A stretch of 64,000 nucleotides of DNA from Buxus sempervirens (taxonomy: Eukaryota; Streptophyta; Magnoliopsida; Buxales; Buxaceae), in the NCBI GenBank assembly GCA_947561395.2, contig OX387184.1:40600766-40664765 (forward strand), written 5' to 3'. Shown here piece after piece: positions 11,601 to 61,300 of this stretch. The notes under the pieces were generated by a model. It was not told where the DNA came from, searched no databases, and saw only the letters and a program-made list of their open reading frames with translations. The number at the start of each line of letters is the position of its first letter. Position 1 is the stretch's first letter. The position numbers and the translations under genes are program-made.

Positions 11601-12754
11601 GTGAAAATTCGGGGTCTTACATATAATGTGTACAAAATACAACTATAGGCTTATTCTACCTATATATTGTATAAATAAAAAACTTGTATAGATATGGCAA
11701 AATTTTTAATTCTCAAAATTAATAATATTATATCAGTCATAAAAATAATATTATAATTAAAGTCCCAAAATATTAAACTAATGTATTTTAATTAGATAAG
11801 TGTGCACACGAAATTTCACACGATGAGGCGCATGCAGGATGCATGCCTCAGGACAATCGGAGTCGCAACTGCCTGAGAGGTGCAGGCAGACACAATGGTG
11901 CTTAACCGGGTCTAATTTTGTTGGTCTGCGACTTCTTTAGAGATTCGGGCAAGTTCTCGATTACGTCCAGGGAAGTCCGAAGACACCCCGGCCCGCCCCG
12001 TCTATCTGACGGGTCCCTCGGGCCTCCCTGGTTTTAATCAACTTAGTCTCACCCTGTTCCTAATCCAGCATGTGTCTTTATTGGGTCTGAGTGGGGGCCA
12101 CTGAAGATGTAGGCCCCCTGTTAGTTGATTTTATCTTTTTTGTTATTAGGTGAAGTGGGTCGGACATGGGCCCCATTGGAAGGCCCATTTAGTACCAAAT
12201 TAGGCTTAAGTAAGCCCATGGCCTATTAGGGTTATTGGGTAACCCTTGTGTGTGCACCTAAATCTACCTAGATCGCACACGAGGCGCACGTGGGTTCGTG
12301 CGTGCCTTGGGACATTTCGAAGTCGCCACTACCTGAGAGGTGCAGGCAGACACAGGGATTGCCTATCTGGGTCTAAGTATGATCTGCGGCTTATTAGAGA
12401 TCTAGCTAAGTTCTCGGTTACGTCCGGAGAAGTCCGAAGACACCCTGGCTCGCCCCGTCGGTATGACAAGTCCCTCGGGTCTCCCTAGTTTTTGAGTCAA
12501 ATTCACTCTTCCTAGACCCGCATGCGTCTTTTTGGGTCTGGAGGTGTGGGCCCCTTTTTATTTCATTTTTATCTTTTTACTTAAGTTGTTTGGGTCGGAT
12601 ACATGCCCCGTTGGAAGACCTGTGGGTTGCCAAGATTGGGCTTGGATCCAGTGTAGACACCCCAAATTGCACTAAAAATGAGAAAATAATTGAAAATATT
12701 AATTGGGATTTGAAACAGGCCAAAAATGCATGAAAATGAATAATTTAAGCCTGG

Positions 12755-12858
12755 ACCGTATTGTATCCACGGGCTAAGCGCGCCCGAATTTTATATACGG
12801 GCATGCAGCGCCCGTAATACATATACGAACATCGTGGGACCGTAAATCATTTACGGGC
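12755..12858. repeat. Palindromic CCGTAT/ATACGGGC cluster in LTR 1
   Basis: Copies of ATACGGGC and its complement GCCCGTAT are packed within about 100 bp, including the near-perfect hairpin CCGTAAAT with ATTTACGG around a 1-nt loop. It lies about 200-300 bp upstream of the TATA box. The same cluster is at 22338-22441 and 31921-32024 in the other LTRs, and a second cluster using the same word is in the internal region (15713-15829, 25296-25412). Confidence 0.8.
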
Positions 12859-13058
12859 ATTCTAGACTCGTGCGAGTTTTATTCTTCTCTCGATTTCTGA
12901 GCCTTATCTTTAGTCCAATATCCCTTTAAATAAGCAAATTATATATTTTATTCGTGTGAAATATCTTTGTGGATAAAGGATGGGCATTATCTTGTGTTTA
13001 ACTCAAACTGAAACTCTATCTTGCCAAACCTTGGACCAACCATACCCCTAGCTCTGCT

Positions 13059-13066
13059 TATAAATA
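13059..13066 (+). promoter_or_regulatory. TATA box, LTR 1
   Basis: TATAAATA followed by GAGG; transcription would start near 13090. Identical boxes lie at 22642-22649 (LTR 2) and 32225-32232 (LTR 3). No ATG occurs between the predicted start and the splice donor at 13164. Confidence 0.7.
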
Positions 13067-14475
13067 GAGGCTCATTCCTCTAGCTAAAGGCCACGAAATT
13101 TTGAAGAATCAAAAGCTCCAAGAGAAGGGAAGGAATCCCTGCTGCTCTGCCTGCTCAATCCAGGTAAGTCCCCTATCCCTTTTTATTTTTCTGTCTTCAA
13201 TTCTAGATATAATAGGATCATCTCTATTGCTGTAGAATAAGGCCATATCTGTTTTTGTATTCCTAAACTTGTCTCTAAGTACCTCAAGGGTCTCTCTAGC
13301 CGTAAAACGTGAAGAGAGAACTAGGGGAAAGGGGAACAGGTGGATCCCTAGAATAGAACCCCATATCTGTTTTTTTTTCTTTTTCTTCATAGAATAAGGC
13401 CTGTGATTGTGTTTGTGTAACCAAACCTATCTCTAAGTACCTCAAGAGTCTCTCTAGCCGTAAAACGTGAAGAGAGAACTAGGGGAAAAGAGAACAGGTG
13501 GATCCGTAGGGTAGACCCCCATGTGCTCTAATTTGTGAGATGTGGTTGTTTTAAATATCCTGATCATGTTTTAATGCTTTTTATGATGAATCTGAATGAA
13601 TACATGAATCCATGATGTTTATAGCATGAGATCTCCTATTTTTGCCAAAATTTGGATTTTTGCCACTTTTGCACCTACAGCACTGTTTTCGTGATTTTTG
13701 TGGTTTTAGGCTAGGATCTTGGATTTATCATGATCAATATGGTAGATCTGAATCCAGAAGCCTGAAAATAAATTCTAGGGTTTCATGAGATGTTTTTAAA
13801 ATTGTTTTTCATTATTGAGAGAAGACCCTACGGTCTCAATTCTCCCCTTTTGGTGTTTTTCATCAACCTGGGTATTTTTGGTTTTGATTTTCAAATTTAA
13901 TGTGAAATTTGGGCTTTATCTATATCCTGGACTATTCAAGTTCAATTTTGAAATATTTTATAAAAATCATATTTTTCTAGATTTCTAGAATTTTGACTTG
14001 AAGCCAGATTTTTGGATTTTTCACTTTAAATTGATTTTATTTGATTTTATTTGATTTTATCTCAATTTTGTTTTGATCATGAAACCCTAGGAATGGTATG
14101 ATCATGTTTGATAGTTCTGGATCAATCAGACTATTCATATGAAAAAACCATATATTTTTGCTTTTTTGTGATTTTGTGTGATTTTTATAGCAAGCCTTTT
14201 ATTTTTGAAAAACATGAACAATGCCTGGCAACCACCTTGTGTGGATGAATAGGGGTGCCTAACACCTTCCTCTGTTCATAACTTAATCCCCTTACCCATC
14301 TCTGGTTGTTTTTTTTTAGGAGAGATATTTTGCCCTAAAATTGCCTTTTGTGCTTATTTAATATTTTGGTGTCCATTCACGCCTAAATTGAATGGTGGCG
14401 ACTCTTTGTTTAATATAATCCCGTGTGATGATTGAGGAAATCATTAAGATTGATTTTTTTCCCATGTCTCACAAC

Positions 14476-14493
14476 TGGCAACTCTGCTGGGGA
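14476..14493 (+). other. Primer-binding site, unit 1
   Basis: TGGCAACTCTGCTGGGGA starts 2 nt after the LTR end, the standard position for a tRNA 3'-end-complementary site. Unit 2 has TGGCGACTCTGCTGGGGA (24059-24076). The G form resembles the primer site reported for Tat/Ogre-type elements (a tRNA-Arg primer, from memory). The A in unit 1 is a mismatch that could weaken priming. Confidence 0.75.
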
Positions 14494-15990
14494 CTTGTGG
14501 ATTTCAGCCTTTAGGTGTTTTTGTTCATGTTTTGATTTTTTTGATTCGCTTGCTATTTTGTGTTCTTAAGCATGTTGAGTATATTTTAAATCTGAATTAT
14601 TGCTTAAGAATTCATAGGGGTAGAAACATGCTTAATTTTGATTTATAGGATTGTTTCTACAAACATGCGTAGGGGAGGTTCGTTTTGATGAACTATGCTT
14701 ATTTCTTGCTATATTTTTATGATAGCATGTTTTAATTTTCAGCATGATCTCCATGATGATTTTGGGTGTATAACATGATCATATGTTTGCATGATAGATG
14801 ATTTTTTTATGAGCATGTTTTGGGTGCTATAGGATTGCTTTATTTACTTGTTTATTTTAAATATGCTTTCCTATTATGCCTTGGTTTGTTTATGCATGGC
14901 TACGAAAAGAGTGGCAAGGGTTTGGGACGTTGTGAATGTAACCTATTTTTACTATGCACTGTGCACCTTTTACTTTTACACAGCCTACCCTTAACCTATA
15001 GGAAGTTGAACCCGAATGTGTGTAGCTTGGCGCAACGAGGTCGATACTTCGGAAAGCGAAAGTGAAAACATTCACCTTAGAACTTTGAGCTAATGATGTG
15101 ATGATAATGTGGATCTGGGATTCTGATCATCACTAGGCTTGAGTGCTAAGTTGCCATTAAGCCAAAACCCAAAACCCCTACGCTTGAAGGTGGAGTTACA
15201 CGTTTTTGGCTAAAGTATACAATTATGTAGGGATATGGGTTTGTATGATTGTGGGAAGGCCATGTGCATGGCTTACAAACTAGGGCATAATGCGGATGCC
15301 ATATTGAAGGTAAACAAGGTAACAAGGTAATCCTATGGTTTTGCATTATTTTCATGTCATAGGGGTGTCACAGTGCCCATTGGTTTGGGATAAAATTGGT
15401 CCCAAAATATGCATGTTTTTTAAAAATTGGTGCAGCCCATAGGAAGAGTCTCTCACTCTGTTTAGAAGCAATCCTACCCTATGTTCATACAAGAGGCAAC
15501 AAAAGGGTACCAAATTCTTGAGTATGGTGTCAATTCGAAGGGTACATGTGCCCTCCTAAGCATGTGTTTTAGCAAAAAGGCCAAGGTCCACTTTGGGACA
15601 GTTTAGAAGCTCTGCAATGGGTGAACCGTACGTTTGGATGAACAATGAAAGTGATCAAACCATGTAAAAACTGGAAAAATATAACGGGGTTCCGTTAAAC
15701 CGCATTTAGTACACGGGCTGGGCTTGCCCGTATTAGTTATACGGGCTAGGCTCGCCCGTGTTTTCCATACAGTCACGGCTTGCTCGTAATTTGAATACGG
15801 GCAGGGCTGGACCGTACTGTGTATACGGTTTTCTCGGAATATTCAACTTTAATCAGTTTTTCCCACTAAAATCTTCCTTTAACATTTAAATAATGATAAA
15901 GGGAAACAAGTTTGAATAAAATGCTTCAAAAAAAAAACAAAAAAAAACAAAAACAAAATAATTGAAAAAAAAATGTGAGAGAAAGGTTCC
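14494..15990 (+). other. Long gag leader, non-coding, unit 1
   Basis: Between the primer-binding site and the hairpin array lie about 1.5 kb without a convincing frame. It contains the second palindromic cluster (15713-15829) and an A-rich stretch (15920-15975). The short frames (14820-15065, 15146-15355) are repeated in unit 2 only because the whole unit is duplicated. Confidence 0.7.
15713..15829. repeat. Internal palindromic cluster (GCCCGTATT/ATACGGGC), unit 1
   Basis: GCCCGTATT and ATACGGGC flank a 4-nt loop, followed by GGGCT/GGCTC linkers and further copies, ending with CCGTA and TATACGG. It uses the same word as the LTR cluster 2.9 kb upstream. Unit 2 copy: 25296-25412. Confidence 0.8.
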
Positions 15991-17048
15991 TTGGGCTTCT
16001 GAAAGCCTTTGAATTTCAGACTTTTTTCAAAACTCTTGGGCTTCTGAAAGCCTTTGAATTTCAGACTTTTTCAAAACTCCTGGGCCTCTGAAAGCCTTTG
16101 AATTTCAGATTTTTCAAAAAATCCTCAGGCCACTGAAAGCCTTTGAATTTCAGACTTTTTTTCTCAAAAAAAAATCCTCGGGCCTCTGAAAGCCTTTGAA
16201 TTTCAGATTTTTCAAAAAATCCTCAGACCACTGAAAGCCTTTGAATTTCAGACCTTTTTCTTTTTGGGCCGTCTAAAAGCCTCTGAATTTTAGACAAATC
16301 ATATTCTTTGGGCCGTCTAAAAGCCTCTGAATTTTAGACAAATCATTTCTTTGGGCCGTTTAAAAGCCTCTGAATTTTAGACAATCATTTCTTTGGGCCG
16401 TCTATAAGCCTCTGAATTATAGACACATATCCTTTGGGCTGTCTAAAAGCCTCTGAATTTTAGACAAATCATTTTTGGGCCGTCTAAAAGCCTCTGAATT
16501 TTAGACAAACCTTTTCTTTGGGCCGTCTATAAGCCTCTGAATTATAGACACATATATCCTTTTTGGGCCGTCTAAAAGCCTCTGAATTTTAAACAAATCA
16601 TTTTTTTGGGCCGTCTAAAAGCCTCTGAATTTTAGACAATCATTCCTTTGGGCCATCTATAAGCCTCTGAATTATAGACACATATCCTTTGGGCCTCTGA
16701 AAGCCTTTGAATTTCAGATCTTTTTCCTCGGGCCTCTGAAAGCCTTTGAATTTCAGACTTTTCTCAAAAATCTCTGGGCCTCTGAAAGCCTTTGAATTTC
16801 AGACTTTTTTCAAAAATATCCTTGGGCCTCTGAAAGCCTTTGAATTTCAGATTTTTTTTTTTCAAAAATATCCCTGGGCCTCTGAAAGCCTTTGAATTTG
16901 AGACTTTTTTCAAAAATATCCCTGGGCCTCTGAAAGCCTTTGAATTTCAGACTTTTTCCAAAAATATCCCTGGGCCTCTGAAAGCCTTTGAATTTCAGAT
17001 CTTTTTCTCTTTTTGTGGGACATGTTGGAAGCCCTAGAATATTCCAAC
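15991..17048 (+). repeat. Array of 24 constant-loop hairpins in the gag leader, unit 1
   Basis: Units of about 38-52 bp each contain a short inverted repeat around a loop GCCTTTGAA or GCCTCTGAA. Thirteen have stem CTGAAA/TTTCAG (units 1-6 and 17-23), seven GTCTAAAA/TTTTAGAC, three GTCTATAA/TTATAGAC; the last and most diverged (17024-17048) has GTTGGAA/TTCCAAC with loop GCCCTAGAATA. Units 8-16 form three rounds of a B-B-C higher-order repeat, about 127 bp each. Both stem halves change together, so pairing is kept; exceptions are one G.U-type pair (unit 9), one C.A (unit 14), one outer mismatch (unit 16) and one G.G (unit 21). Spacers are T-rich with GGGCC. Not a CRISPR array; coding frames across it are accidental. 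Confidence 0.93.
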
Positions 17049-17239
17049 AATTCAATTCAAAAAAAAAAAAAAGAAGCAAATAAAGAAAAAAATCCAAACT
17101 CGTGTTCACCCAGCTTGCACATAGGCATACATAGGCATGTGAATGAGATTAAATTGGCACTGATATTTTCTCTTTATTTTTCCAGGTACCAAGTACACTT
17201 GCAACCATAGCTCCTATAACCAGATCAAGAGCTCGTGCC

Positions 17240-18919
17240 ATGAATCCCATTGAGAATGAAGCTGATACTCCTCACCCAGATATGGTCCTGCTTCAGGAGC
17301 AAGTGGCAGGACTAGCCCGAATGCTAGAGAACATACTATCGGTGCAGGCCCAACAAGTTCAAGCCCAGAACCAAGCACCTCCACCTCCAATCAATATCCC
17401 ACCTCCGGTTCAACCTATTCCTGAACCCATTTCTGAACCTACCCCTGAACCTATACTGATCAGGGAGGAGATGGTTGAGTCTGAGAAAGAGAAGGAAAAG
17501 GAAAAAATGAGGGAAGAAATGGAGAAGAAGTTCATGCATAGGCTGGAGATTATTCAGGATGAGTTAAGGGAAGTGAAGGGAGTTAAATCATTTGGGGGCA
17601 CCAATTTTGAAGATTTGTGTCTATACCCCAATGTATGTCTACCGGCCAAATTCAAATGTCCGGATTTTGATAAATATGATGGCACTGGCTGCCCAATGAG
17701 CCATTTGAAGTTATACTGCGGGGCTTTATGCCAATTTGGCCGGGATGACGGCATACTAATTCAACTCTTCCAAAGGAGTTTAACTGGAGCTGCTTTGAAG
17801 TGGTTTACCACCTTGGATCATGGGAAAATAAGAAGGTGGAAAGACTTAGCAGATTCCTTTTTGACACAATACAGGTTCAACTCTGAGATTATACCAGATA
17901 GGTATGACATGATGAAGATGACAAAGAGAAATGATGAGACCATAAGGCAATATGCTAAAAGGTGGAGGGAGTTGGCTGCACAAGTTAAGCCACCCGTGGG
18001 AGAACCAGAAATGATTTCAACCTTCATCAGCACACTGGGGCAACCCTTTTACAGTCACTTGGTTGGTCAAACTACCACCAACTTTGCTGCCCTAGTGCAA
18101 GTGGCAGACAGAATTGAAGACGGGATCAAGTCTGGGAAAATAGCTGATTATTCTGCAGTGTTGAACCAGGAAGCTTCCACCACTTTCTCTACACAGAAAA
18201 AGGAGAATGGTAATGGAAGAATAAAGAATAAAGAAGGGAGAGAAGCAGAAGTGAATATGGTGCAACTTCCCAGGGAACCCTTTCAAATCAATGTCCATCC
18301 ACCTCCTATTAAGCCAACCCATCAAGTTCCTTTGCTGCCTATTCAAATTAATGTCCCTGCTGCACAGCCTGTGAAGGAGGAAACAGAAGTAAGGAAGAGA
18401 AGGGAATTCTCTAAACTGCCTATGAGACCATCTGAACTTTTGCCTACCTTACTTCAGAAGGGTTACGTGACTTTGAAGTTACCAAATCCTCATGCAAGCA
18501 AAGGGAAGAATTATGATTCATCTGCAATCTGTGATTATCATATGAGCACTCCAGGGCATACCACAGATCGTTGCTTGGCCCTAAAGCATGCAATCCAGGA
18601 TTTGTTGGATAATAACTCCTTATCATTCAATTCAGTCACACCCATCCCACCTACCGATAACAATGGGGCAGGCAGCTCAAATGCAATAGGGGCAATTTTC
18701 TCTGGAGAAAGAAGATTTGACCCTTCTCAGCTTATCACTCCTATTGGTCCAACAGTCAAGGTTTATCTTGAAAGAAATGCTCCTGGTTATGAGCAGGAAG
18801 GCTTGCCTCACTCAGCAAGAGAAAGAAATTATCTGAAAAAGGGAGAAAAGTCAACTTTTGCCTTTAAGAACAGGGGCAGTTTTCGAACTCCCATGTTCTT
18901 TGAAAAGAAACTCCTATAA
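17240..18919 (+). CDS. gag: Retrotransposon Gag, Ty3/Gypsy Tat/Ogre type, unit 1
   Basis: Intact 559-aa ORF. In order: a heptad-like helix (residues 16-36), a proline-rich linker (47-71), a highly charged Glu/Lys coiled coil (79-115), the retrotransposon gag core (about 130-300, with LTGAALKWF and the Tat/Ogre-like FRLTQYRF-type region DSFLTQYRF), a basic linker, and a zinc-knuckle-like motif C431-X2-H434-X5-H440-X4-C445. This CHHC spacing is a variant of the usual CCHC knuckle and, from memory, typical of Tat/Ogre Gags. Gag packages genomic RNA into cytoplasmic particles. The frame is open upstream to the predicted acceptor at 17185, but the first ATG is 17240. No pol frame follows. Residue 290 is Asp here and Asn in unit 2. 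The intact frame after duplication suggests recent or continuing function. Confidence 0.92.
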   Translation: MNPIENEADTPHPDMVLLQEQVAGLARMLENILSVQAQQVQAQNQAPPPPINIPPPVQPIPEPISEPTPEPILIREEMVESEKEKEKEKMREEMEKKFMHRLEIIQDELREVKGVKSFGGTNFEDLCLYPNVCLPAKFKCPDFDKYDGTGCPMSHLKLYCGALCQFGRDDGILIQLFQRSLTGAALKWFTTLDHGKIRRWKDLADSFLTQYRFNSEIIPDRYDMMKMTKRNDETIRQYAKRWRELAAQVKPPVGEPEMISTFISTLGQPFYSHLVGQTTTNFAALVQVADRIEDGIKSGKIADYSAVLNQEASTTFSTQKKENGNGRIKNKEGREAEVNMVQLPREPFQINVHPPPIKPTHQVPLLPIQINVPAAQPVKEETEVRKRREFSKLPMRPSELLPTLLQKGYVTLKLPNPHASKGKNYDSSAICDYHMSTPGHTTDRCLALKHAIQDLLDNNSLSFNSVTPIPPTDNNGAGSSNAIGAIFSGERRFDPSQLITPIGPTVKVYLERNAPGYEQEGLPHSARERNYLKKGEKSTFAFKNRGSFRTPMFFEKKLL

Positions 18920-22045: not shown

Positions 22046-22220
22046 GGAGGATTTGGCCCTTAAGCTGAGGGACTTCTTAGCAAATCTTCCAAAATAAATT
22101 CTTTTTCATAAAATCGTCCATTTGATCCTTGCAAAGTGCAATTGGTTAGACAAAAGTCTTAGAAAGTGCAATTGGTGGGTCTTTTTTGCTCTCTGCTTGT
22201 AATTGGTTCCAATTACTAGC

Positions 22221-22234
22221 AAAGAGGGGGCAGC
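22221..22234 (+). other. Polypurine tract, unit 1
   Basis: AAAGAGGGGGCAGC directly before the TG of LTR 2, the position of the plus-strand primer. The same sequence precedes LTR 3 at 31804-31817. Confidence 0.8.
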
Positions 22235-24056
22235 TGTAGACACCCCAAATTGCACTAAAAATGAGAAAATAATTGAAAATATTAATTGGGATTTGAAACA
22301 GGCCAAAAATGCATGAAAATGAATAATTTAAGCCTGGACCGTATTGTATCCACGGCCTAAGCGCGCCCGAATTTTATATACGGGCATGCAGCGCCCGTAA
22401 TACATATACGGACATCGTGGGACCGTAAATCATTTACGGGCATTCTAGACTCGTGCGAGTTTTATTCTTCTCTCGATTTCTGAGCCTTATCTTTAGTCCA
22501 ATATCCCTTTAAATAAGCAAATTATATATTTTATTCGTGTGAAATATCTTTGTGGATAAAGGATGGGCATTATCTTGTGTTTAACTCAAACTGAAACTCT
22601 ATCTTGCCAAACCTTGGACCAACCATACCCCTAGCTCTGCTTATAAATAGAGGCTCATTCCTCTAGCTAAAGGCCACGAAATTTTGAAGAATCAAAAGCT
22701 CCAAGAGAAGGGAAGGAATCCCTGCTGCTCTGCCTGCTCAATCCAGGTAAGTCCCCTATCCCTTTTTATTTTTCTGTCTTCAATTCTAGATATAATAGGA
22801 TCATCTCTATTGCTGTAGAATAAGGCCATATCTGTTTTTGTATTCCTAAACTTGTCTCTAAGTACCTCAAGGGTCTCTCTAGCCGTAAAACGTGAAGAGA
22901 GAACTAGGGGAAAGGGGAACAGGTGGATCCCTAGAATAGAACCCCATATCTGTTTTTTTTTCTTTTTCTTCATAGAATAAGGCCTGTGATTGTGTTTGTG
23001 TAACCAAACCTATCTCTAAGTACCTCAAGAGTCTCTCTAGCCGTAAAACGTGAAGAGAGAACTAGGGGAAAAGAGAACAGGTGGATCCGTAGGGTAGACC
23101 CCCATGTGCTCTAATTTGTGAGATGTGGTTGTTTTAAATATCCTGATCATGTTTTAATGCTTTTTATGATGAATCTGAATGAATACATGAATCCATGATG
23201 TTTATAGCATGAGATCTCCTATTTTTGCCAAAATTTGGATTTTTGCCACTTTTGCACCTACAGCACTGTTTTCGTGATTTTTGTGGTTTTAGGCTAGGAT
23301 CTTGGATTTATCATGATCAATATGGTAGATCTGAATCCAGAAGCCTGAAAATAAATTCTAGGGTTTCATGAGATGTTTTTAAAATTGTTTTTCATTATTG
23401 AGAGAAGACCCTACGGTCTCAATTCTCCCCTTTTGGTGTTTTTCATCAACCTGGGTATTTTTGGTTTTGATTTTCAAATTTAATGTGAAATTTGGGCTTT
23501 ATCTATATCCTGGACTATTCAAGTTCAATTTTGAAATATTTTATAAAAATCATATTTTTCTAGATTTCTAGAATTTTGACTTGAAGCCAGATTTTTGGAT
23601 TTTTCACTTTAAATTGATTTTATTTGATTTTATTTGATTTTATCTCAATTTTGTTTTGATCATGAAACCCTAGGAATGGTATGATCATGTTTGATAGTTC
23701 TGGATCAATCAGACTATTCATATGAAAAAACCATATATTTTTGCTTTTTTGTGATTTTGTGTGATTTTTATAGCAAGCCTTTTATTTTTGAAAAACATGA
23801 ACAATGCCTGGCAACCACCTTGTGTGGATGAATAGGGGTGCCTAACACCTTCCTCTGTTCATAACTTAATCCCCTTACCCATCTCTGGTTGTTTTTTTTT
23901 AGGAGAGATATTTTGCCCTAAAATTGTCTTTTGTGCTTATTTAATATTTTGGTGTCCATTCACGCCTAAATTGAATGGTGGCGACTCTTTGTTTAATATA
24001 ATCCCGTGTGATGATTGAGGAAATCATTAAGATTGATTTTTTTCCCATGTCTCACA
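22235..24056 (+). repeat. LTR 2 (shared central LTR)
   Basis: 1822 bp, near-identical to LTR 1 and LTR 3. One private difference was noticed (ATTGTCTTTT where the others have ATTGCCTTTT, near 23935). It serves as 3' LTR of unit 1 and 5' LTR of unit 2. TATA box 22642-22649; donor 22747; palindrome cluster 22338-22441. Confidence 0.95.
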
Positions 24057-25573: not shown

Positions 25574-26631
25574 TTGGGCTTCTGAAAGCCTTTGAATTTC
25601 AGACTTTTTTCAAAACTCTTGGGCTTCTGAAAGCCTTTGAATTTCAGACTTTTTCAAAACTCCTGGGCCTCTGAAAGCCTTTGAATTTCAGATTTTTCAA
25701 AAAATCCTCAGGCCACTGAAAGCCTTTGAATTTCAGACTTTTTTTCTCAAAAAAAAATCCTCGGGCCTCTGAAAGCCTTTGAATTTCAGATTTTTCAAAA
25801 AATCCTCAGACCACTGAAAGCCTTTGAATTTCAGACCTTTTTCTTTTTGGGCCGTCTAAAAGCCTCTGAATTTTAGACAAATCATATTCTTTGGGCCGTC
25901 TAAAAGCCTCTGAATTTTAGACAAATCATTTCTTTGGGCCGTTTAAAAGCCTCTGAATTTTAGACAATCATTTCTTTGGGCCGTCTATAAGCCTCTGAAT
26001 TATAGACACATATCCTTTGGGCTGTCTAAAAGCCTCTGAATTTTAGACAAATCATTTTTGGGCCGTCTAAAAGCCTCTGAATTTTAGACAAACCTTTTCT
26101 TTGGGCCGTCTATAAGCCTCTGAATTATAGACACATATATCCTTTTTGGGCCGTCTAAAAGCCTCTGAATTTTAAACAAATCATTTTTTTGGGCCGTCTA
26201 AAAGCCTCTGAATTTTAGACAATCATTCCTTTGGGCCATCTATAAGCCTCTGAATTATAGACACATATCCTTTGGGCCTCTGAAAGCCTTTGAATTTCAG
26301 ATCTTTTTCCTCGGGCCTCTGAAAGCCTTTGAATTTCAGACTTTTCTCAAAAATCTCTGGGCCTCTGAAAGCCTTTGAATTTCAGACTTTTTTCAAAAAT
26401 ATCCTTGGGCCTCTGAAAGCCTTTGAATTTCAGATTTTTTTTTTTCAAAAATATCCCTGGGCCTCTGAAAGCCTTTGAATTTGAGACTTTTTTCAAAAAT
26501 ATCCCTGGGCCTCTGAAAGCCTTTGAATTTCAGACTTTTTCCAAAAATATCCCTGGGCCTCTGAAAGCCTTTGAATTTCAGATCTTTTTCTCTTTTTGTG
26601 GGACATGTTGGAAGCCCTAGAATATTCCAAC
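25574..26631 (+). repeat. Array of 24 constant-loop hairpins, unit 2
   Basis: Copy of the array at 15991-17048, with the same order of stem classes (A x6, B, three rounds of B-B-C, A x7, D). No hairpin gain or loss between the units was seen, although such arrays usually change unit number readily; this fits recent duplication. Confidence 0.93.
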
Positions 26632-26822: not shown

Positions 26823-28502
26823 ATGAATCCCATTGAGAATGAAGCTGATACTCCTCACCCAGATATGGTCCTGCTTCAGGAGCAAGTGGCAGGACTAGCC
26901 CGAATGCTAGAGAACATACTATCGGTGCAGGCCCAACAAGTTCAAGCCCAGAACCAAGCACCTCCACCTCCAATCAATATCCCACCTCCGGTTCAACCTA
27001 TTCCTGAACCCATTTCTGAACCTACCCCTGAACCTATACTGATCAGGGAGGAGATGGTTGAGTCTGAGAAAGAGAAGGAAAAGGAAAAAATGAGGGAAGA
27101 AATGGAGAAGAAGTTCATGCATAGGCTGGAGATTATTCAGGATGAGTTAAGGGAAGTGAAGGGAGTTAAATCATTTGGGGGCACCAATTTTGAAGATTTG
27201 TGTCTATACCCCAATGTATGTCTACCGGCCAAATTCAAATGTCCGGATTTTGATAAATATGATGGCACTGGCTGCCCAATGAGCCATTTGAAGTTATACT
27301 GCGGGGCTTTATGCCAATTTGGCCGGGATGACGGCATACTAATTCAACTCTTCCAAAGGAGTTTAACTGGAGCTGCTTTGAAGTGGTTTACCACCTTGGA
27401 TCATGGGAAAATAAGAAGGTGGAAAGACTTAGCAGATTCCTTTTTGACACAATACAGGTTCAACTCTGAGATTATACCAGATAGGTATGACATGATGAAG
27501 ATGACAAAGAGAAATGATGAGACCATAAGGCAATATGCTAAAAGGTGGAGGGAGTTGGCTGCACAAGTTAAGCCACCCGTGGGAGAACCAGAAATGATTT
27601 CAACCTTCATCAGCACACTGGGGCAACCCTTTTACAGTCACTTGGTTGGTCAAACTACCACCAACTTTGCTGCCCTAGTGCAAGTGGCAAACAGAATTGA
27701 AGACGGGATCAAGTCTGGGAAAATAGCTGATTATTCTGCAGTGTTGAACCAGGAAGCTTCCACCACTTTCTCTACACAGAAAAAGGAGAATGGTAATGGA
27801 AGAATAAAGAATAAAGAAGGGAGAGAAGCAGAAGTGAATATGGTGCAACTTCCCAGGGAACCCTTTCAAATCAATGTCCATCCACCTCCTATTAAGCCAA
27901 CCCATCAAGTTCCTTTGCTGCCTATTCAAATTAATGTCCCTGCTGCACAGCCTGTGAAGGAGGAAACAGAAGTAAGGAAGAGAAGGGAATTCTCTAAACT
28001 GCCTATGAGACCATCTGAACTTTTGCCTACCTTACTTCAGAAGGGTTACGTGACTTTGAAGTTACCAAATCCTCATGCAAGCAAAGGGAAGAATTATGAT
28101 TCATCTGCAATCTGTGATTATCATATGAGCACTCCAGGGCATACCACAGATCGTTGCTTGGCCCTAAAGCATGCAATCCAGGATTTGTTGGATAATAACT
28201 CCTTATCATTCAATTCAGTCACACCCATCCCACCTACCGATAACAATGGGGCAGGCAGCTCAAATGCAATAGGGGCAATTTTCTCTGGAGAAAGAAGATT
28301 TGACCCTTCTCAGCTTATCACTCCTATTGGTCCAACAGTCAAGGTTTATCTTGAAAGAAATGCTCCTGGTTATGAGCAGGAAGGCTTGCCTCACTCAGCA
28401 AGAGAAAGAAATTATCTGAAAAAGGGAGAAAAGTCAACTTTTGCCTTTAAGAACAGGGGCAGTTTTCGAACTCCCATGTTCTTTGAAAAGAAACTCCTAT
28501 AA
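26823..28502 (+). CDS. gag: Retrotransposon Gag, Ty3/Gypsy Tat/Ogre type, unit 2
   Basis: Intact 559-aa ORF identical to the unit 1 Gag except Asn for Asp at residue 290, by comparing the two translations. It has the same coiled-coil, proline-rich, gag-core and CHHC-knuckle (C431-H434-H440-C445) layout. The predicted leader acceptor is at 26768, 54 nt upstream. No pol frame follows. Two intact Gag copies driven by identical LTRs could raise Gag dosage; particle formation would still need Pol from another element. Confidence 0.92.
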   Translation: MNPIENEADTPHPDMVLLQEQVAGLARMLENILSVQAQQVQAQNQAPPPPINIPPPVQPIPEPISEPTPEPILIREEMVESEKEKEKEKMREEMEKKFMHRLEIIQDELREVKGVKSFGGTNFEDLCLYPNVCLPAKFKCPDFDKYDGTGCPMSHLKLYCGALCQFGRDDGILIQLFQRSLTGAALKWFTTLDHGKIRRWKDLADSFLTQYRFNSEIIPDRYDMMKMTKRNDETIRQYAKRWRELAAQVKPPVGEPEMISTFISTLGQPFYSHLVGQTTTNFAALVQVANRIEDGIKSGKIADYSAVLNQEASTTFSTQKKENGNGRIKNKEGREAEVNMVQLPREPFQINVHPPPIKPTHQVPLLPIQINVPAAQPVKEETEVRKRREFSKLPMRPSELLPTLLQKGYVTLKLPNPHASKGKNYDSSAICDYHMSTPGHTTDRCLALKHAIQDLLDNNSLSFNSVTPIPPTDNNGAGSSNAIGAIFSGERRFDPSQLITPIGPTVKVYLERNAPGYEQEGLPHSARERNYLKKGEKSTFAFKNRGSFRTPMFFEKKLL

Positions 28503-31817: not shown

Positions 31818-33639
31818 TGTAGACACCCCAAATTGCACTAAAAATGAGAAAATAATTGAAAATATTAATTGGGATTTGAAACAGGCCAAAAATGCATGAA
31901 AATGAATAATTTAAGCCTGTACCGTATTGTATCCACGGCCTAAGCGCGCCCGAATTTTATATACGGGCATGCAGCGCCCGTAATACATATACGGACATCG
32001 TGGGACCGTAAATCATTTACGGGCATTCTAGACTCGTGCGAGTTTTATTCTTCTCTCGATTTCTGAGCCTTATCTTTAGTCCAATATCCCTTTAAATAAG
32101 CAAATTATATATTTTATTCGTGTGAAATATCTTTGTGGATAAAGGATGGGCATTATCTTGTGTTTAACTCAAACTGAAACTCTATCTTGCCAAACCTTGG
32201 ACCAACCATACCCCTAGCTCTGCTTATAAATAGAGGCTCATTCCTCTAGCTAAAGGCCACGAAATTTTGAAGAATCAAAAGCTCCAAGAGAAGGGAAGGA
32301 ATCCCTGCTGCTCTGCCTGCTCAATCCAGGTAAGTCCCCTATCCCTTTTTATTTTTCTGTCTTCAATTCTAGATATAATAGGATCATCTCTATTGCTGTA
32401 GAATAAGGCCATATCTGTTTTTGTATTCCTAAACTTGTCTCTAAGTACCTCAAGGGTCTCTCTAGCCGTAAAACGTGAAGAGAGAACTAGGGGAAAGGGG
32501 AACAGGTGGATCCCTAGAATAGAACCCCATATCTGTTTTTTTTTCTTTTTCTTCATAGAATAAGGCCTGTGATTGTGTTTGTGTAACCAAACCTATCTCT
32601 AAGTACCTCAAGAGTCTCTCTAGCCGTAAAACGTGAAGAGAGAACTAGGGGAAAAGAGAACAGGTGGATCCGTAGGGTAGACCCCCATGTGCTCTAATTT
32701 GTGAGATGTGGTTGTTTTAAATATCCTGATCATGTTTTAATGCTTTTTATGATGAATCTGAATGAATACATGAATCCATGATGTTTATAGCATGAGATCT
32801 CCTATTTTTGCCAAAATTTGGATTTTTGCCACTTTTGCACCTACAGCACTGTTTTCGTGATTTTTGTGGTTTTAGGCTAGGATCTTGGATTTATCATGAT
32901 CAATATGGTAGATCTGAATCCAGAAGCCTGAAAATAAATTCTAGGGTTTCATGAGATGTTTTTAAAATTGTTTTTCATTATTGAGAGAAGACCCTACGGT
33001 CTCAATTCTCCCCTTTTGGTGTTTTTCATCAACCTGGGTATTTTTGGTTTTGATTTTCAAATTTAATGTGAAATTTGGGCTTTATCTATATCCTGGACTA
33101 TTCAAGTTCAATTTTGAAATATTTTATAAAAATCATATTTTTCTAGATTTCTAGAATTTTGACTTGAAGCCAGATTTTTGGATTTTTCACTTTAAATTGA
33201 TTTTATTTGATTTTATTTGATTTTATCTCAATTTTGTTTTGATCATGAAACCCTAGGAATGGTATGATCATGTTTGATAGTTCTGGATCAATCAGACTAT
33301 TCATATGAAAAAACCATATATTTTTGCTTTTTTGTGATTTTGTGTGATTTTTATAGCAAGCCTTTTATTTTTGAAAAACATGAACAATGCCTGGCAACCA
33401 CCTTGTGTGGATGAATAGGGGTGCCTAACACCTTCCTCTGTTCATAACTTAATCCCCTTACCCATCTCTGGTTGTTTTTTTTTAGGAGAGATATTTTGCC
33501 CTAAAATTGCCTTTTGTGCTTATTTAATATTTTGGTGTCCATTCACGCCTAAATTGAATGGTGGCGACTCTTTGTTTAATATAATCCCGTGTGATGATTG
33601 AGGAAATCATTAAGATTGATTTTTTTCCCATGTCTCACA
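31818..33639 (+). repeat. LTR 3 of the gag-only array
   Basis: 1822 bp, ending GTCTCACA directly before the TSD copy CCCAG. It shares GGCCTAAG and ACGGAC with LTR 2 against LTR 1, and has one private change (CCTGTACCG for CCTGGACCG near 31919). TATA box 32225-32232. Confidence 0.95.
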
Positions 33640-43237: not shown

Positions 43238-45654
43238 TTTATAGATATTTTCTAGATTTTCCCTTTCTCTCTCCTATATTGTTGAAATGATGTTGATGAG
43301 AGAATCCAGATTTTTTTTATTTTTTATTATTTTAATTAATTAAAAGAAAATATTTGAAAATATTATTATTTTATTCAAGATATTTTGCTTTCTTGTCGTT
43401 TGACTTGCCACGTGGATAGAGTTTCTTCATTTTTGCCCTGAAGGCTGTTTTGCTCATTATTAGAGAATTTTAACGTGACCGTATAAGGTATATGGTTGCG
43501 AATTCTTTTAGTTGCCACGTGGACTGAATTTCTGCATTTATTTACGGTTTTGCCCTTTGGGGTGTTCTGCTCATAACATCCTCATCTGAACTCCGATTCT
43601 GACAAGCTCAATTACGTTGGAACCGTGTCAAGATTTCCTATCCATGGAGACAAGGTATGGCAGTAAATTCAAGCTTGATCAGAATGTTAATTTCTGCTCC
43701 CTAGGGTTTGACCTGTTTCAAGGTTCTGTTGTTTTTAGCACGTTTTGGTTTGAACAAAATTTGGGTGCTTACACCCGGGTCAATGCAAAACCGGCACTCA
43801 ACCCGAATCCAAAGTACTATAGCCCAAAGCTTCCAAATGCCAGACAATAAAATTCAATTCGATTAACAATTAATATCAGAGTGCAAAAGTCTTATCATCA
43901 ATAAAACCAATAATAATAAGCGTGGATTAAAGTCATCCAAACCTTCTCATCAAAATATAACTCAAGTCTGGTAAAACAGGTTCTATCACTCTCACTCTCA
44001 CTCGCATAAACATCAATTCTTAAATTAACAAATAACTAATCAATGTCTCAAATAACAAAACAATATCAAAACCTAACTATTATGGATAATAGTAGTCCTC
44101 TGGAAGAAAATGAGCAAACTCGCCCCCGGAAGCAAACCCCACGTCTCTCTCATGCGTATCAGTTGAAAACAAAACAAATAGGAATGAGTTACGAATATCT
44201 CAGTAGGTAACAACATGCATGAATAAATAGTTTATATATATAGAAGATAGTTACCTTCATGCTCGGTAAAAATAAACGAGATAAGCAAGATACGATACAA
44301 TCTCAATAGATTAAACAGTTCTCAAATCAAAATAGTTCACAAGTATAATCTTTTCCATCAACATAAATTTCCAACACAATAGTGTAATAATCAAGATTAC
44401 AACTAATCCATCACAATCCATCATACAACATTGTAGGACTTATAAGGACAAGCATGATTTTGAAAAGAAACTCTCCATTCACTATGCCACCATGCGACTT
44501 ATGAGCGAAGCTACTAAGACCCTCAAACCTGTATATCACTGAAGCAAGAGGCGTAATCATCGACTTATTGCACACGAAACTTACGAAGTTCGGCACGTAC
44601 CACTAGCATGCAGCACCTTAATCAATACATGGAGATGGTCGCTTATCCGCATATACAAGACTCACCAGCGAGGCTCGAAATGACCTTACAGACATGCAGA
44701 CCCCCAATGCAAACTAACTTGCAAAGGAAGCACGAGCACAAATTAGGAGTACCCTAACAAAGAAAAACCTCCCCACTCTTAAGCTTAACCTTATGGATCC
44801 ATATGCAGCTATGCCCACTAGACACCAACAATATCAATTACCTCAAACGAACATGGTTTAATAAAAGTGCCTAGTGGCATATAGGGTTTTCAAAATCTCA
44901 TACTCTTTCCAAAAATAATTTTATAAAACAGTTTCTGGTGTAAAGTTTTTCTAGTGATATTCAGAAATCATAATACTTTAAAATACATTTTTCTAAGTAG
45001 GAATTTTTAACCAAATCGAATCAGATTTCTAAATAACCCAAAATCCCATTTTATTTTCAAGTCAAACAACCCAATTGCAAAACAATCCTAAATTATTCTT
45101 TAATTTGTTTTAAATACAAAAGATCATTTAAAACAGTTGTTGTGAGACATGGGAAAATCAATTCAATGACTTCCTTATCATCACACGGGCTCAATAAAAA
45201 AGGAGTCGCCACCATTCAATTTTAGGTGTGAATGGACACCAAAATAATCAAATAAAATAAAAAAAGGCAAAATTAGAGTGAAAATAACTCTACTTTAAAA
45301 TGAATAAAAAAAATCCAGAGATGGGTAAGGAGATAAGGTTATAAATAGGGGAAGGTGTTAGGCACCCCTATTCATCCACACAAGGTGGTTGCCAAGTGTT
45401 GTTCAAGCTTTGAAAAGAAAGGGCTTACTAATAAAAACCAAATTAAAAATAAAAAACGTATGTCTTTTTCTATATGAATGGCCCAATTAATTCTGAACCC
45501 TTCATTTGAATATGCCATCTTTAGGGTTTCATTATTGAGTAAAATCAAAATAAAGAAAACAAATCTAAAGTAAAAACTTGAAAAACTAGCTTTAAGTTAA
45601 ATCCTTGAAATATTGGAACTACATAATAAAAGTTAAAAATCTTATTTTAACAAA

Positions 45655-46165
45655 ATATTGAGGAATTAAGCCTAAACAATCTAGGATACAGATCTGGTAC
45701 AAATCTCTCTTTAGTTGAAAGATCTAAACCAAATATACCCATGCTGGTGAAAAGCATCAAAAAGGGAGAGTTTAGACCATAGGATCCTCTCTCAAAAATT
45801 AAAACAATTCAAAAATCACCTCATGACATTGAAGAATAAATCCGAAGCATCTAGGATACAGATCTGATCCAGATTTCTCATTGGTTGAGAGATCTAGACC
45901 AGATAAACCCATGTTGATGAAAAACATCAAAAAGGGAGAGTTTAGACCATAGGATCTTCTCTCAAAAATTGAAAACAACTCAAAATCACCTCATGATATT
46001 GAAGATTAAATCCGAACCATCTAGGGTACAGATCTGGTCCAGATTTCTCATTAATTGAGAGATCTAAACCAGATACACCCCATGTTGATGAAAAACGTAA
46101 AAAATGGAGAGTTTAGACCATAAGATCTTCTCTCAAAAATTGAAAACAACTCAAAAATCACCTCA
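45655..46165. repeat. Tandem repeat of about 165 bp in LTR D
   Basis: Three successive copies containing GGATACAGATCTG, TTGAGAGATCTA, ACCCATGTTGATGAAAA and AGGGAGAGTTTAGACCATA, with moderate divergence. The gag-only LTRs have only one such segment (GAGAGAAGACCCTACGGTC, near 13820), so D expanded this part. This accounts for its greater length (2489 versus 1822 bp). Confidence 0.85.
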
Positions 46166-58350: not shown

Positions 58351-61300
58351 TGTAACACCCCGAATCCAGGTCATTTTTTTTCTCATTTTGAGTCGGATCA
58401 AGGCATTAACTTGTGGTACATTACAATCAGTTCAAATATAAGGAAATAAAGAACTAAGATTTATCAGAGTGCTAAGAAGCTCAAATCATTTATTAGAAAC
58501 TGAATCTCCCTATTACATCAATTAATCAATTGAAAGGCAGCTACAAATTTGACTAACTCATAAATCCTTCTAGATCCCCTACTATTAAGATCCTAATAAA
58601 ACAAATACAACTATATAAAAGGTCCTACACTTGTCTTTAGGATTTTCTAGACGTCAACCCATTACAGTTTAACCCGGGGTGCCCTCTCCAAGATGACTTA
58701 AAAATAGAATATAAAGTAGGGGTGAGATACGAATATCTCAGTAGGTAATACATGCATGCTAGAAACAGTTTATATATAAAATTAATCATTCATGCACGAT
58801 AAAACAATCGGGTAGTCACGGTCGATAATAAGAACGAGTAATCACCGGGCAAAACCAACATTTATTCAGTGCTTGAAATAAAGAGAGTTTATTTAAATGT
58901 AAATCATGTCATTCATAATTAATAGTGAATTTCAATCTGATAATAACATTCTCTCATGTAGGATGCAATCACGTAGTAATCACATCTACCCTACATGAGG
59001 TCTCTCCCGCAGGAGTCATCATATCTCACCCACAGGTGATCACATCTCACCCGCAGGTGGTAATCACATATATCTCCCTTGTGGGATACAATCACATAAT
59101 GATTAAATCTTCCCCACAAGAGGTCACATCTCTCCCGCAAGAGGTCACATATCTCCCCTGTGGAATGCAATCCAATCAGGATCACATCTCCCCCAACAGG
59201 AGGTCTCATCTTACCCGCAGGTGGTCACATATCTCTCCTGTGGAATGCAATCCAATCAGGATCACATCTCCCCCAACAGGAGGTCTCATCTCACCCATAG
59301 GTGGTCACATATCTCCCATGTGGGATGCAATTCAATTAGGATCATATCTCCCCCAACAGGAGGTCTCATCTCATCCGCAGGTGGTCACATATCTCCCCTG
59401 TAGGATGCAATCCAATCAGGATCACATCTCCCCCAACAAGAGGTCTCATTTCACCCGCAGGTGGTCACATATCTCCCCTATGGGATGCAATCCAATCAGG
59501 ATCATATCTCCCTCAACATGAGGTCTCATCTCACCCGCAGGTGGTCACATATCTCCCCTGTGGGATGCAATCCAATCAGGATCACATCTCCCCCAACAGG
59601 AGGTCTCATCTCACCCGCAGGTGGTCACATATCTTATCCGCAGATGGTAAGAATCTCTTATAGCCATCATGGCATCCAATCCACAGTCCAAATTATATTT
59701 TGAGTATTCATAACAACTTGAACCCAATCAGTTTATAATTCAAACCTTATTCAACGATTAGTTCATTAGTCTGTAGTTACACTAACTGGGTATAATTATG
59801 GGATAATCAAAGTATTAGATGACTCGAGTGATTAGAGGTAGTGACGGGGTCAATTGAGGTAACTTCGAGGTTATGTAAAGTTATAAAGTAATGTAAAGGT
59901 AAAGTTTAGGGGTAATAAGATAATTACTATTTACTTACGTTTAGGGACAATATGGTTCTTGCTATTTATAAAGTAGTTCAGGTAAAATTTAGGGATGGGG
60001 ATATAATATAATAAAGTGTGTATTAATTTTTTAGTGAAACTTAGAGTAGACCAATTCAATTACTAATGAGGCCTAACGGTAAATAGGGTTCTTTCTCCAA
60101 TGTCTTTAAGGTAGTTCGACTGGGTTGAGTTTCGGATATAAAGTCCCTATTTGTAGAAATCTGGTTACTGATATATAATTCAATGTATCTTAATTAATTA
60201 CTCAAATTTATAGAGGTTTATCTGTATTACTTAGAATTTCTTATTTAAGATCAAGTTTAGGCAACTAATTACCTAAAATAATTTCCTATTTATTTTTCTA
60301 CCAAAACAGGGTATTTGATAATTTATTTTGGTCTTAAAACTTCTTAATTAATGATTAAAATTGACTAAAAATAGTTTGGAATTGAATCAGGGTTTGAAAT
60401 TATGAAATTCTGCATTTTCTGGTTAGAGCGCTCAGGATTGCTCAGGATCACCTGGGCGGTCTAGGGTCAGCGGTAGTTCAAAATAGATCGCCGACAATAA
60501 GCCAGGTAGCGGTCTCGAGTGCTCTCAATTTTTCAACGAGCGCCTGGGAGCGCCGAGGGTCGCTGAGCACAGTAAGCTCGGCGGTCTCCCAAAAACAAAC
60601 ATACAATGTTTAAAAATCCGATTTTTCATGTCCAAGATGATTCTAACATAATTATAAGATTGATATCAAACTAAATACATGTATATAAAACACTAAAACA
60701 TGCAATAGAGATTAAACATGTACGAGAACACAAAAACGCTCGATAAAACAGTGCTCCCTACCTGATTGTGCGAGTTCTGATTCTTCTTCTGAATAGAAAC
60801 CCTTCTTCTCTTCTCAAACACAGAATAACACTCTTAAGGCGATGAAGAATGCAAGACAGATGTTCCTTCTTCTCCTTTTCTTCTTCAATCTTTCTCTCCC
60901 TTTCGTTTTTCCCCTTCGGCCGTTGAATACCCCAAACCAATTACAATACGATGGAACATACGCTTAACATTCCTCTAGGGTATAAACCCTATTCTTTTAT
61001 ACCCCACGATCCTACGCAACACACATTAGACAATCATCCAATTAGAACACAGTTTCAGATTTACTTAATTCTTACCTCGATCTACCACGATCCAACGGTC
61101 AGATTTTCCGCCACTCTCCTGATCTCCTCTATCAGTGCGATCATCTATAATTATAATTAATATCCTTCAATAAAATTCTCATCTCCTCGACTTAAGGCTC
61201 TAAATCGACTATATTTATCATCATGCCCTTATTCCACTTATCAAGGTATAAATATCATTATTAATATGAAATCTGAACCCAACTTAAATCTATCATTATT

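Follow-up and report, generated by a model that had tools for sequence, protein, structure and literature searches.

Covarying, pseudoknot-like leader repeats of a young gag-only retrotransposon of Buxus sempervirens and its gag-pol relatives

Why would the leader of a retrotransposon carry two dozen short repeats whose stems differ from unit to unit and still pair? The question is raised by a 64,000-nucleotide stretch of Buxus sempervirens DNA (host genome size 676.5 Mb), referred to here as the window, in which a preliminary description had noted such an array upstream of a gag gene. The features of the locus are listed in Table 1. The array lies in a tandem whose three 1,822-bp LTRs differ pairwise by 2–3 substitutions with zero gaps, as expected from unequal recombination or tandem insertion. 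The tandem carrying both array copies is recent, and the second copy, which is indeed base-for-base identical to the first, is therefore not independent evidence. The element itself is a young gag-only element of the Ty3/gypsy type, with the two LTRs and single gag ORF of a TR-GAG. Between gag and the 3′ LTR there is no non-gag frame of 150 aa, the longest other stretch being 118 codons; Pfam was applied to gag alone, and a badly decayed pol could remain. The Gag has 28 protein relatives, compared at the protein level without DNA context, the best of which (Tetracentron) is 41% identical. The tandem is flanked by TCCAG and CCCAG, so that a 5-bp target duplication would match at four of five bases. 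Elsewhere in the window, the downstream part of the LTR has a 74% identical counterpart (45139–45826, minus strand) that lies beside a 170-bp direct repeat (45679–46018), and a tandem repeat with an 80-bp period and seven register copies occupies 59032–59751.

Table 1. Positions of the element, its leader signals and the repeat array in the window
Feature	Position	Strand	Remarks
LTR–internal–LTR–internal–LTR tandem	12652–33639	+	
5′ LTR	12652–14473	+	1,822 bp, TG...CA
TATA box TATAAATAG	13059–13067	+	In LTR
Predicted splice donor ATCCAG/GTAAGT	13158–13169	+	Intron from 13164
Probable primer-binding site TGGCAACTCTGCTGGGGAC	14476–14494	+	Assigned from position
Array	15991–17048	+	24 units, 23 with loop GCCTYTGAA
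Example unit	16266–16295	+	
Example unit, S1 5′ strand	16266–16269	+	GGGC
Example unit, L1	16270	+	C
Example unit, S2 5′ arm	16271–16278	+	GTCTAAAA
Example unit, S1 3′ strand	16279–16282	+	GCCT
Example unit, L3	16283–16287	+	CTGAA
Example unit, S2 3′ arm	16288–16295	+	TTTTAGAC
Gag-proximal second-class unit	17024–17048	+	GTTGGAA-GCCCTAGAATA-TTCCAAC
Predicted branch site, pyrimidine tract and acceptor	17159–17185	+	CTGAT (17160–17164); TTTTTCCAG/GTAC
gag ORF	17240–18919	+	559 aa; Retrotrans_gag, E 2.8e-12
Polypurine tract AGCAAAGAGGGGGCAGC	22211–22234	+	Adjoins 3′ LTR
Further LTR copies	22235–24056 and 31818–33639	+	
Array, copy 2	25574–26631	+	Identical to first copy
gag ORF 2	26823–28502	+	559 aa

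All 24 units are present where the preliminary description had placed them, with a mean spacing of 44.5 nt, and they use four stems (TCTGAAA, GTCTAAAA, GTCTATAA and GTTGGAA). The single shared loop claimed for them holds for 23 units (GCCTTTGAA in 13 and GCCTCTGAA in 10); the last unit differs, with loop GCCCTAGAATA. Likewise, the count of only four units with a mismatch or wobble is correct for the stem lengths used in that description and rises to six once a seventh pair is counted in the first stem type. Pairwise identity between units averages 0.84 over a 29-nt core versus 0.45 over the following 10 nt. Folding of the whole array was no better than that of shuffled sequences (z of −0.58 sense and −0.38 antisense, 20 shuffles each); nested folding is blind to pseudoknots, but it still gives the array no support. 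The array contains one ATG against a mean of 11.3 (minimum 4) in 300 dinucleotide shuffles, with CAT as frequent as expected, a weak signal because the units are copied from a few types.

The repeats are abundant in the genome. A 16-base core (GCCTYTGAATTTYAGA) gave at least 28,513 matches (14,184 forward and 14,329 reverse) versus 0 for the reversed control. A search with the window Gag scored at least 78 of 11,910 candidates, 69 of these 78 being without an internal stop, and a search with the reverse transcriptase of a second element (L001) scored 115 of 10,769 candidates, which were 99–100% identical and of which 113 had no internal stop.

For the main stem (S2), units were defined by the loop alone (13 types), provided that it was flanked by an A and a T, and seven bases were taken on each side, which yielded 1,434 units from 59 non-overlapping places. 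Left out before counting were L002–L008 (same place as L001) and L010 (the second copy in the window, same as L009), together with the near-duplicates L030 (of L029) and L038 (of L037); the overlapping pairs L027/L043 and L032/L040 stood in earlier counts and were removed from the final counts for both stems. All seven pairs are Watson–Crick in 1,120 units and six of seven in 262, with 52 units having fewer. The 116 distinct arm pairs average 5.67 Watson–Crick pairs of seven, compared with 4.46 when the 3′ arms are reshuffled (maximum 4.77 in 500), a reshuffling that takes no account of the common descent of the stem types. Among the types that recur in two or more stretches, stem positions 3–7 all vary, with Watson–Crick swaps at each, and eleven types are fully paired (CCTGAAA, CTTGAAA, CTTGGAA, GTTGGAA, TAAGGAA, TCTAAAA, TCTAGAA, TCTATAA, TCTGAAA, TTCTAAA and TTTGAAA). 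The proposal that both arms change together is thus borne out between unit types, where complementarity exceeds that of all 500 reshufflings, and so is the argument that minisatellite drift alone would not yield it; five of the seven stem positions vary by such swaps. The fixed loop, on the other hand, does not survive comparison with the relatives, which use at least a dozen loops.

Bulk copies behave differently from unit types. One stem with its loop occurs genome-wide as 19,085 intact 23-mers. At its pair 6 there are 693 T·G wobbles versus 778 C·A mismatches and, with either loop allowed, 937 T–A pairs; an estimated ∼84 changes affect both arms (9 of 100 listed places with the T loop, scaled to 937) versus ∼28 expected for independent arms. 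Given the absence of a wobble preference genome-wide, most copies decay free of constraint, and it is between unit types that the arms covary. Mutation of one arm alone, which had been proposed as the refuting observation, is about as frequent as chance predicts in the bulk of old copies, a result that tells partly against the preliminary description. A wobble test for strand-specific RNA selection was suggestive in the fetched stretches (62 GU, 37 AC and 43 other among 142 single-defect units) and was set aside because the genome-wide counts override it.

In the window, GGGCC or a close variant of it stands before every unit. Its GGGC can pair with the GCCT at the start of the loop, forming a second stem (S1) that interleaves with S2 as in an H-type pseudoknot. 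The plain hairpin of the preliminary description is therefore right as to the stem and incomplete as to the unit, whose conserved segment ahead of the stem both pairs and covaries with the loop start. In most units the S1 strands are GGGC/GCCU, AGGC/GCCU, AAGC/GCUU, GGGU/ACCU or GGG/CCC. In the non-overlapping set, the 84 GCTT loops are preceded by AAGC (50), GGGC (7), AGGC (4) or no motif (23), GCCC loops by GGGA (three pairs) in 58 of 67 cases, and the 17 ACCT loops by GGGT (9) or GGGC (6). The 1,159 GCCT loops are accompanied by GGGC (846), AGGC (131), AGGA (85), none (58) and rarer forms.

MAFFT, applied to 25 unit types, misaligned the S1 columns, and S1 was therefore counted by script in a fixed register, with one 5′ strand taken per stem-and-loop type (37 types). 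Watson–Crick pairs fill 121 of 148 cells versus 105.4 on shuffling (maximum 116 in 5,000), and at the first three positions all 37 types are paired (shuffled mean 30.7, maximum 35), the classes being few and shared by descent. The strands change together at three of the four positions. When overlapping stretches were retained, the counts were 128 of 160 cells and 39 of 40 types, and sliding the partner by 1–3 bases lowered the number of paired cells to 57, 19 and 21, respectively. The effect is weaker over all 141 distinct types, rare ones included: at three positions 0.723 are paired versus 0.637 shuffled (maximum 0.702), and at four positions the value of 0.468 (shuffled 0.405, maximum 0.482) lies within the shuffle range. 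In 150 pairs of neighbouring units with different loop starts the unit's own S1 strand pairs in 295 of 300 cases versus 234 of 300 after swapping; GCCC/GCCT neighbours show no own-strand preference (5.98 versus 5.94 of 8).

Most units have an S1 of 4 bp, an L1 of 1–2 nt, an S2 of 7–8 bp and an L3 of 3–6 nt, or else values of 3, 3–4, 6–8 and 4–7, respectively; the commonest combinations are 4/1/8/5, 4/1/7/5 and 4/2/7/5. H-type pseudoknot loops follow length rules for crossing the grooves, and loops of these lengths are able to do so. Two interleaved complementary stems are found in the RRGN classes, and both stems covary, with few independent classes. Most units thus look like H-type pseudoknots, in that the start of the loop has a complementary 5′ strand that changes along with it, and such a structure is likely as judged from sequence. 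In the proposed fold, S1 would comprise 3–4 bp between the upstream RRGN and the loop start, L1 about 1–4 nt, S2 6–8 bp and L3 3–7 nt, usually ending in A. An upstream RRGN strand is lacking in 153 of 1,500 array hairpins. The leaders of L076–L079, four young members of the gag-pol lineage, contain 30 GCCC units and 26 units with the same stem, loop TAGAGTAG and no S1 partner, which do not have the two interleaved stems; these lie outside the S1 and S2 tests because the four stretches were added later. Many hairpins of a third kind in the same leaders (TTGGTTGGT-TATTTTT-ATCAATCAA) contain G–U pairs.

The array had been tied to an element coding only for Gag, and this does not hold, since a gag-pol element carries it as well. 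L001 has 20 first-class units and 2–5 GCCC-class units, depending on the pattern; downstream come an open frame carrying the Retrotrans_gag and G-patch domains and then RVT_1 (E 1.2e-32) and RNase H. Over 413 columns, the Gags of L001 and the window share 59% identity. The GCCC class was found in 58 of 60 distinct array-reaching leader stretches searched (with overlaps L040/L032 and L043/L027) and is absent from L012. Gag similarity sorts the stretches into three groups with different repertoires. The window-like group has mostly first-class units with one to three GCCC units (L012 matched no GCCC pattern) and the L001-like group has both classes. The third, roughly 56–66% identical to both others, has GCTT, GCCTGAA and GCCC units and few or no first-class units, a repertoire biased by its partial selection through the GCTT pattern. 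The stretches that follow L046, L050 and L056 yielded no reverse-transcriptase motif. Copies with 99–100% identical reverse transcriptase contain 0–20 first-class and 2–8 second-class units; L076–L079, of the L001 reverse-transcriptase family, have none of the first class. Among these four, reverse transcriptase is nearly identical and yet the leader arrays differ in size and make-up. The array of L044 is broken by what reads as the LTR of a related element, starting TGTAGACACCCC. Other hairpin-like repeats occur upstream of the window array (15706–15770) and in the LTR (ACGGGC...GCCCGT), and TATCCGG...CCGGATA repeats occupy the comparable part of the L001 leader.

A feature absent from the preliminary description bears on its packaging idea: the leader, including the primer site, looks in sequence like an intron of ∼4 kb that extends from the LTR to just before gag. 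The predicted donor scores 11.77 bits with a matrix typed from general knowledge, the next best site in 12661–17240 reaching 7.83. The acceptor at 17185 is the strongest in the leader and lies 54 nt upstream of the gag ATG, with a possible branch site (CTGAT) 21 nt upstream of it. If the start site is assumed to lie 30 nt after the TATA box, 80 upstream ATGs in the unspliced leader compare with 0 in a spliced leader of 129 nt, in both element copies. An acceptor 40–79 nt before ATGAA is present in 40 of 48 leaders, eight having none under that rule, and the acceptors of the third Gag group are weaker AAG forms. In L044, a related LTR has CTCAG/GTAAGC about equally far from its TATA box, a thin test of donor conservation that covers two LTRs (window and L044). 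A search of the genomic DNA for the spliced junction gave four matches at up to three mismatches, all of them unspliced acceptors (control 0); the absence of spliced DNA copies fits spliced RNA not being copied and is no evidence of splicing. Because the array lies within the predicted intron, only unspliced RNA would keep it.

We tentatively favor a reading, possible though somewhat short of probable, in which H-type pseudoknots of the predicted leader intron form a multivalent mark on unspliced RNA. With the intron the spliced RNA would lose primer site and array along with some 80 upstream ATGs, leaving a short mRNA from which gag would be translated, and the unspliced genomic RNA would keep primer site and array. 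Gag would be the most likely reader of the mark, for packaging, and as many weak sites would sum, the array could turn over while each unit kept its fold. Whether the units are pseudoknots at all is challenged by the view that stem and loop are selected as plain hairpins and that GGGCC and its relatives are a single-stranded protein site that happens to resemble the complement of the loop. The units with loop TAGAGTAG fit this view in keeping stem and GGG without a partner, as do the shortness of S1 and the predicted stability of the S2 hairpins alone (−3.3 to −8.0 kcal/mol); the covariation of the S1 strands beyond 5,000 shuffles does not, nor does the contrast, at one and the same stem, between AAGCC-TCTAGAA-GCTT and AGGCC-TCTAGAA-GCCT, and we consider plain hairpins unlikely. 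The main rival explanation of the perfect arms is mutational: template switching by reverse transcriptase or during replication would correct imperfect inverted repeats, and tandem duplication would spread the units. Rapid turnover of arrays among copies with 99–100% identical reverse transcriptase, the excess of double changes in one unit type and the lack of a GU preference all agree with it. It leaves unexplained a covarying 4-nt S1 interleaved with S2, the conserved loop ends and the conservation of core over linker, and is in our judgment quite improbable.

As to function, the main rival is control of nuclear export or splicing, in which the array, like a constitutive transport element, would export unspliced RNA or slow the splicing of the leader. 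Its position inside the predicted intron suits such a role, and intron-containing retroelement RNA is reported to need help to leave the nucleus (PMC10309623). A search of the 64-kb window against Rfam, which gave no match at the gathering score and three weak, unrelated ones (E 0.2–0.3), counts against it, and we rate this role as distinctly unlikely. RNA dimerisation and a decoy for the Gag of a helper element, both named in the preliminary description, are further candidate roles. A selfish or neutral array, one with no role for the element and comparable to the family-specific repeats of Retand, seems very improbable: plant LTR elements often carry tandem repeats (PMC11963269) and the bulk copies decay without a wobble bias, but units of different kinds precede gag at the same site in three Gag groups, and two stems covary. 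A more specific form of the packaging mark, a modular and rapidly evolving lock-and-key code in which the GCCU/GCUU/ACCU/GCCC repertoire on unspliced RNA would diverge with the Gag lineage and gag-only elements would be packaged through units of their own and borrow pol, is rather unlikely.

Little is known of how plant LTR retrotransposons separate genomic RNA from mRNA or of how gag-only elements get copied. The predicted splice would separate two RNA pools, which makes the choice between translation and packaging testable here. As a packaging mark, the array would offer a natural series of pseudoknot variants, some pairs of which differ only by compensatory changes, in many near-identical copies.

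The Psi packaging region of retroviruses lies in the leader, upstream of gag, in unspliced RNA, and Gag reads the retroviral RNA. The present array resembles it in leader position and, if the predicted donor is used, in being restricted to unspliced RNA; it differs in consisting of two dozen short repeats with changing stems, for which Gag binding is putative. Tandem pseudoknots in the 3′ UTRs of plant viruses stand at the 3′ end and are few in number, whereas 24 units precede gag here. The upstream pseudoknot domain of TMV is reported to consist of consecutive short pseudoknots in genomic RNA (PMC4683447). In Ty1, a leader pseudoknot is reported as a major site of Gag binding in vitro, with no demonstrable role in packaging (PMC4974528); like the putative pseudoknots described here it belongs to an LTR-element leader, and unlike them it is a single long-range fold. 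A TR-GAG copy is reported to transpose in Arabidopsis (PMC8704663). Like the window element, TR-GAGs have two LTRs and one gag ORF with no pol found, but the Arabidopsis example is of copia type, and the accessible part of its description includes no leader array. The barley element BARE is described as having separate RNA pools for Gag translation and replication, and the parasitic, Gag-less BARE2 as sharing packaging signals with it (PMC3735527); the intron given there is 104 nt long and inside the ORF, in contrast to the 4-kb leader intron predicted here. Retand-type plant Ty3/gypsy elements carry family-specific tandem arrays, reportedly most often between pol and the 3′ LTR (PMC11963269), so that array position differs, and hairpins and pseudoknots are absent from that text. 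No description of a leader array of the present kind was found in the open-licence literature. Elements with gag alone, pseudoknots in leaders and tandem repeats of plant elements have all been described before; what appears to be new is that two dozen pseudoknot-like units, their stems covarying, form an array in the leader and that gag-only and gag-pol lineages have it in common.
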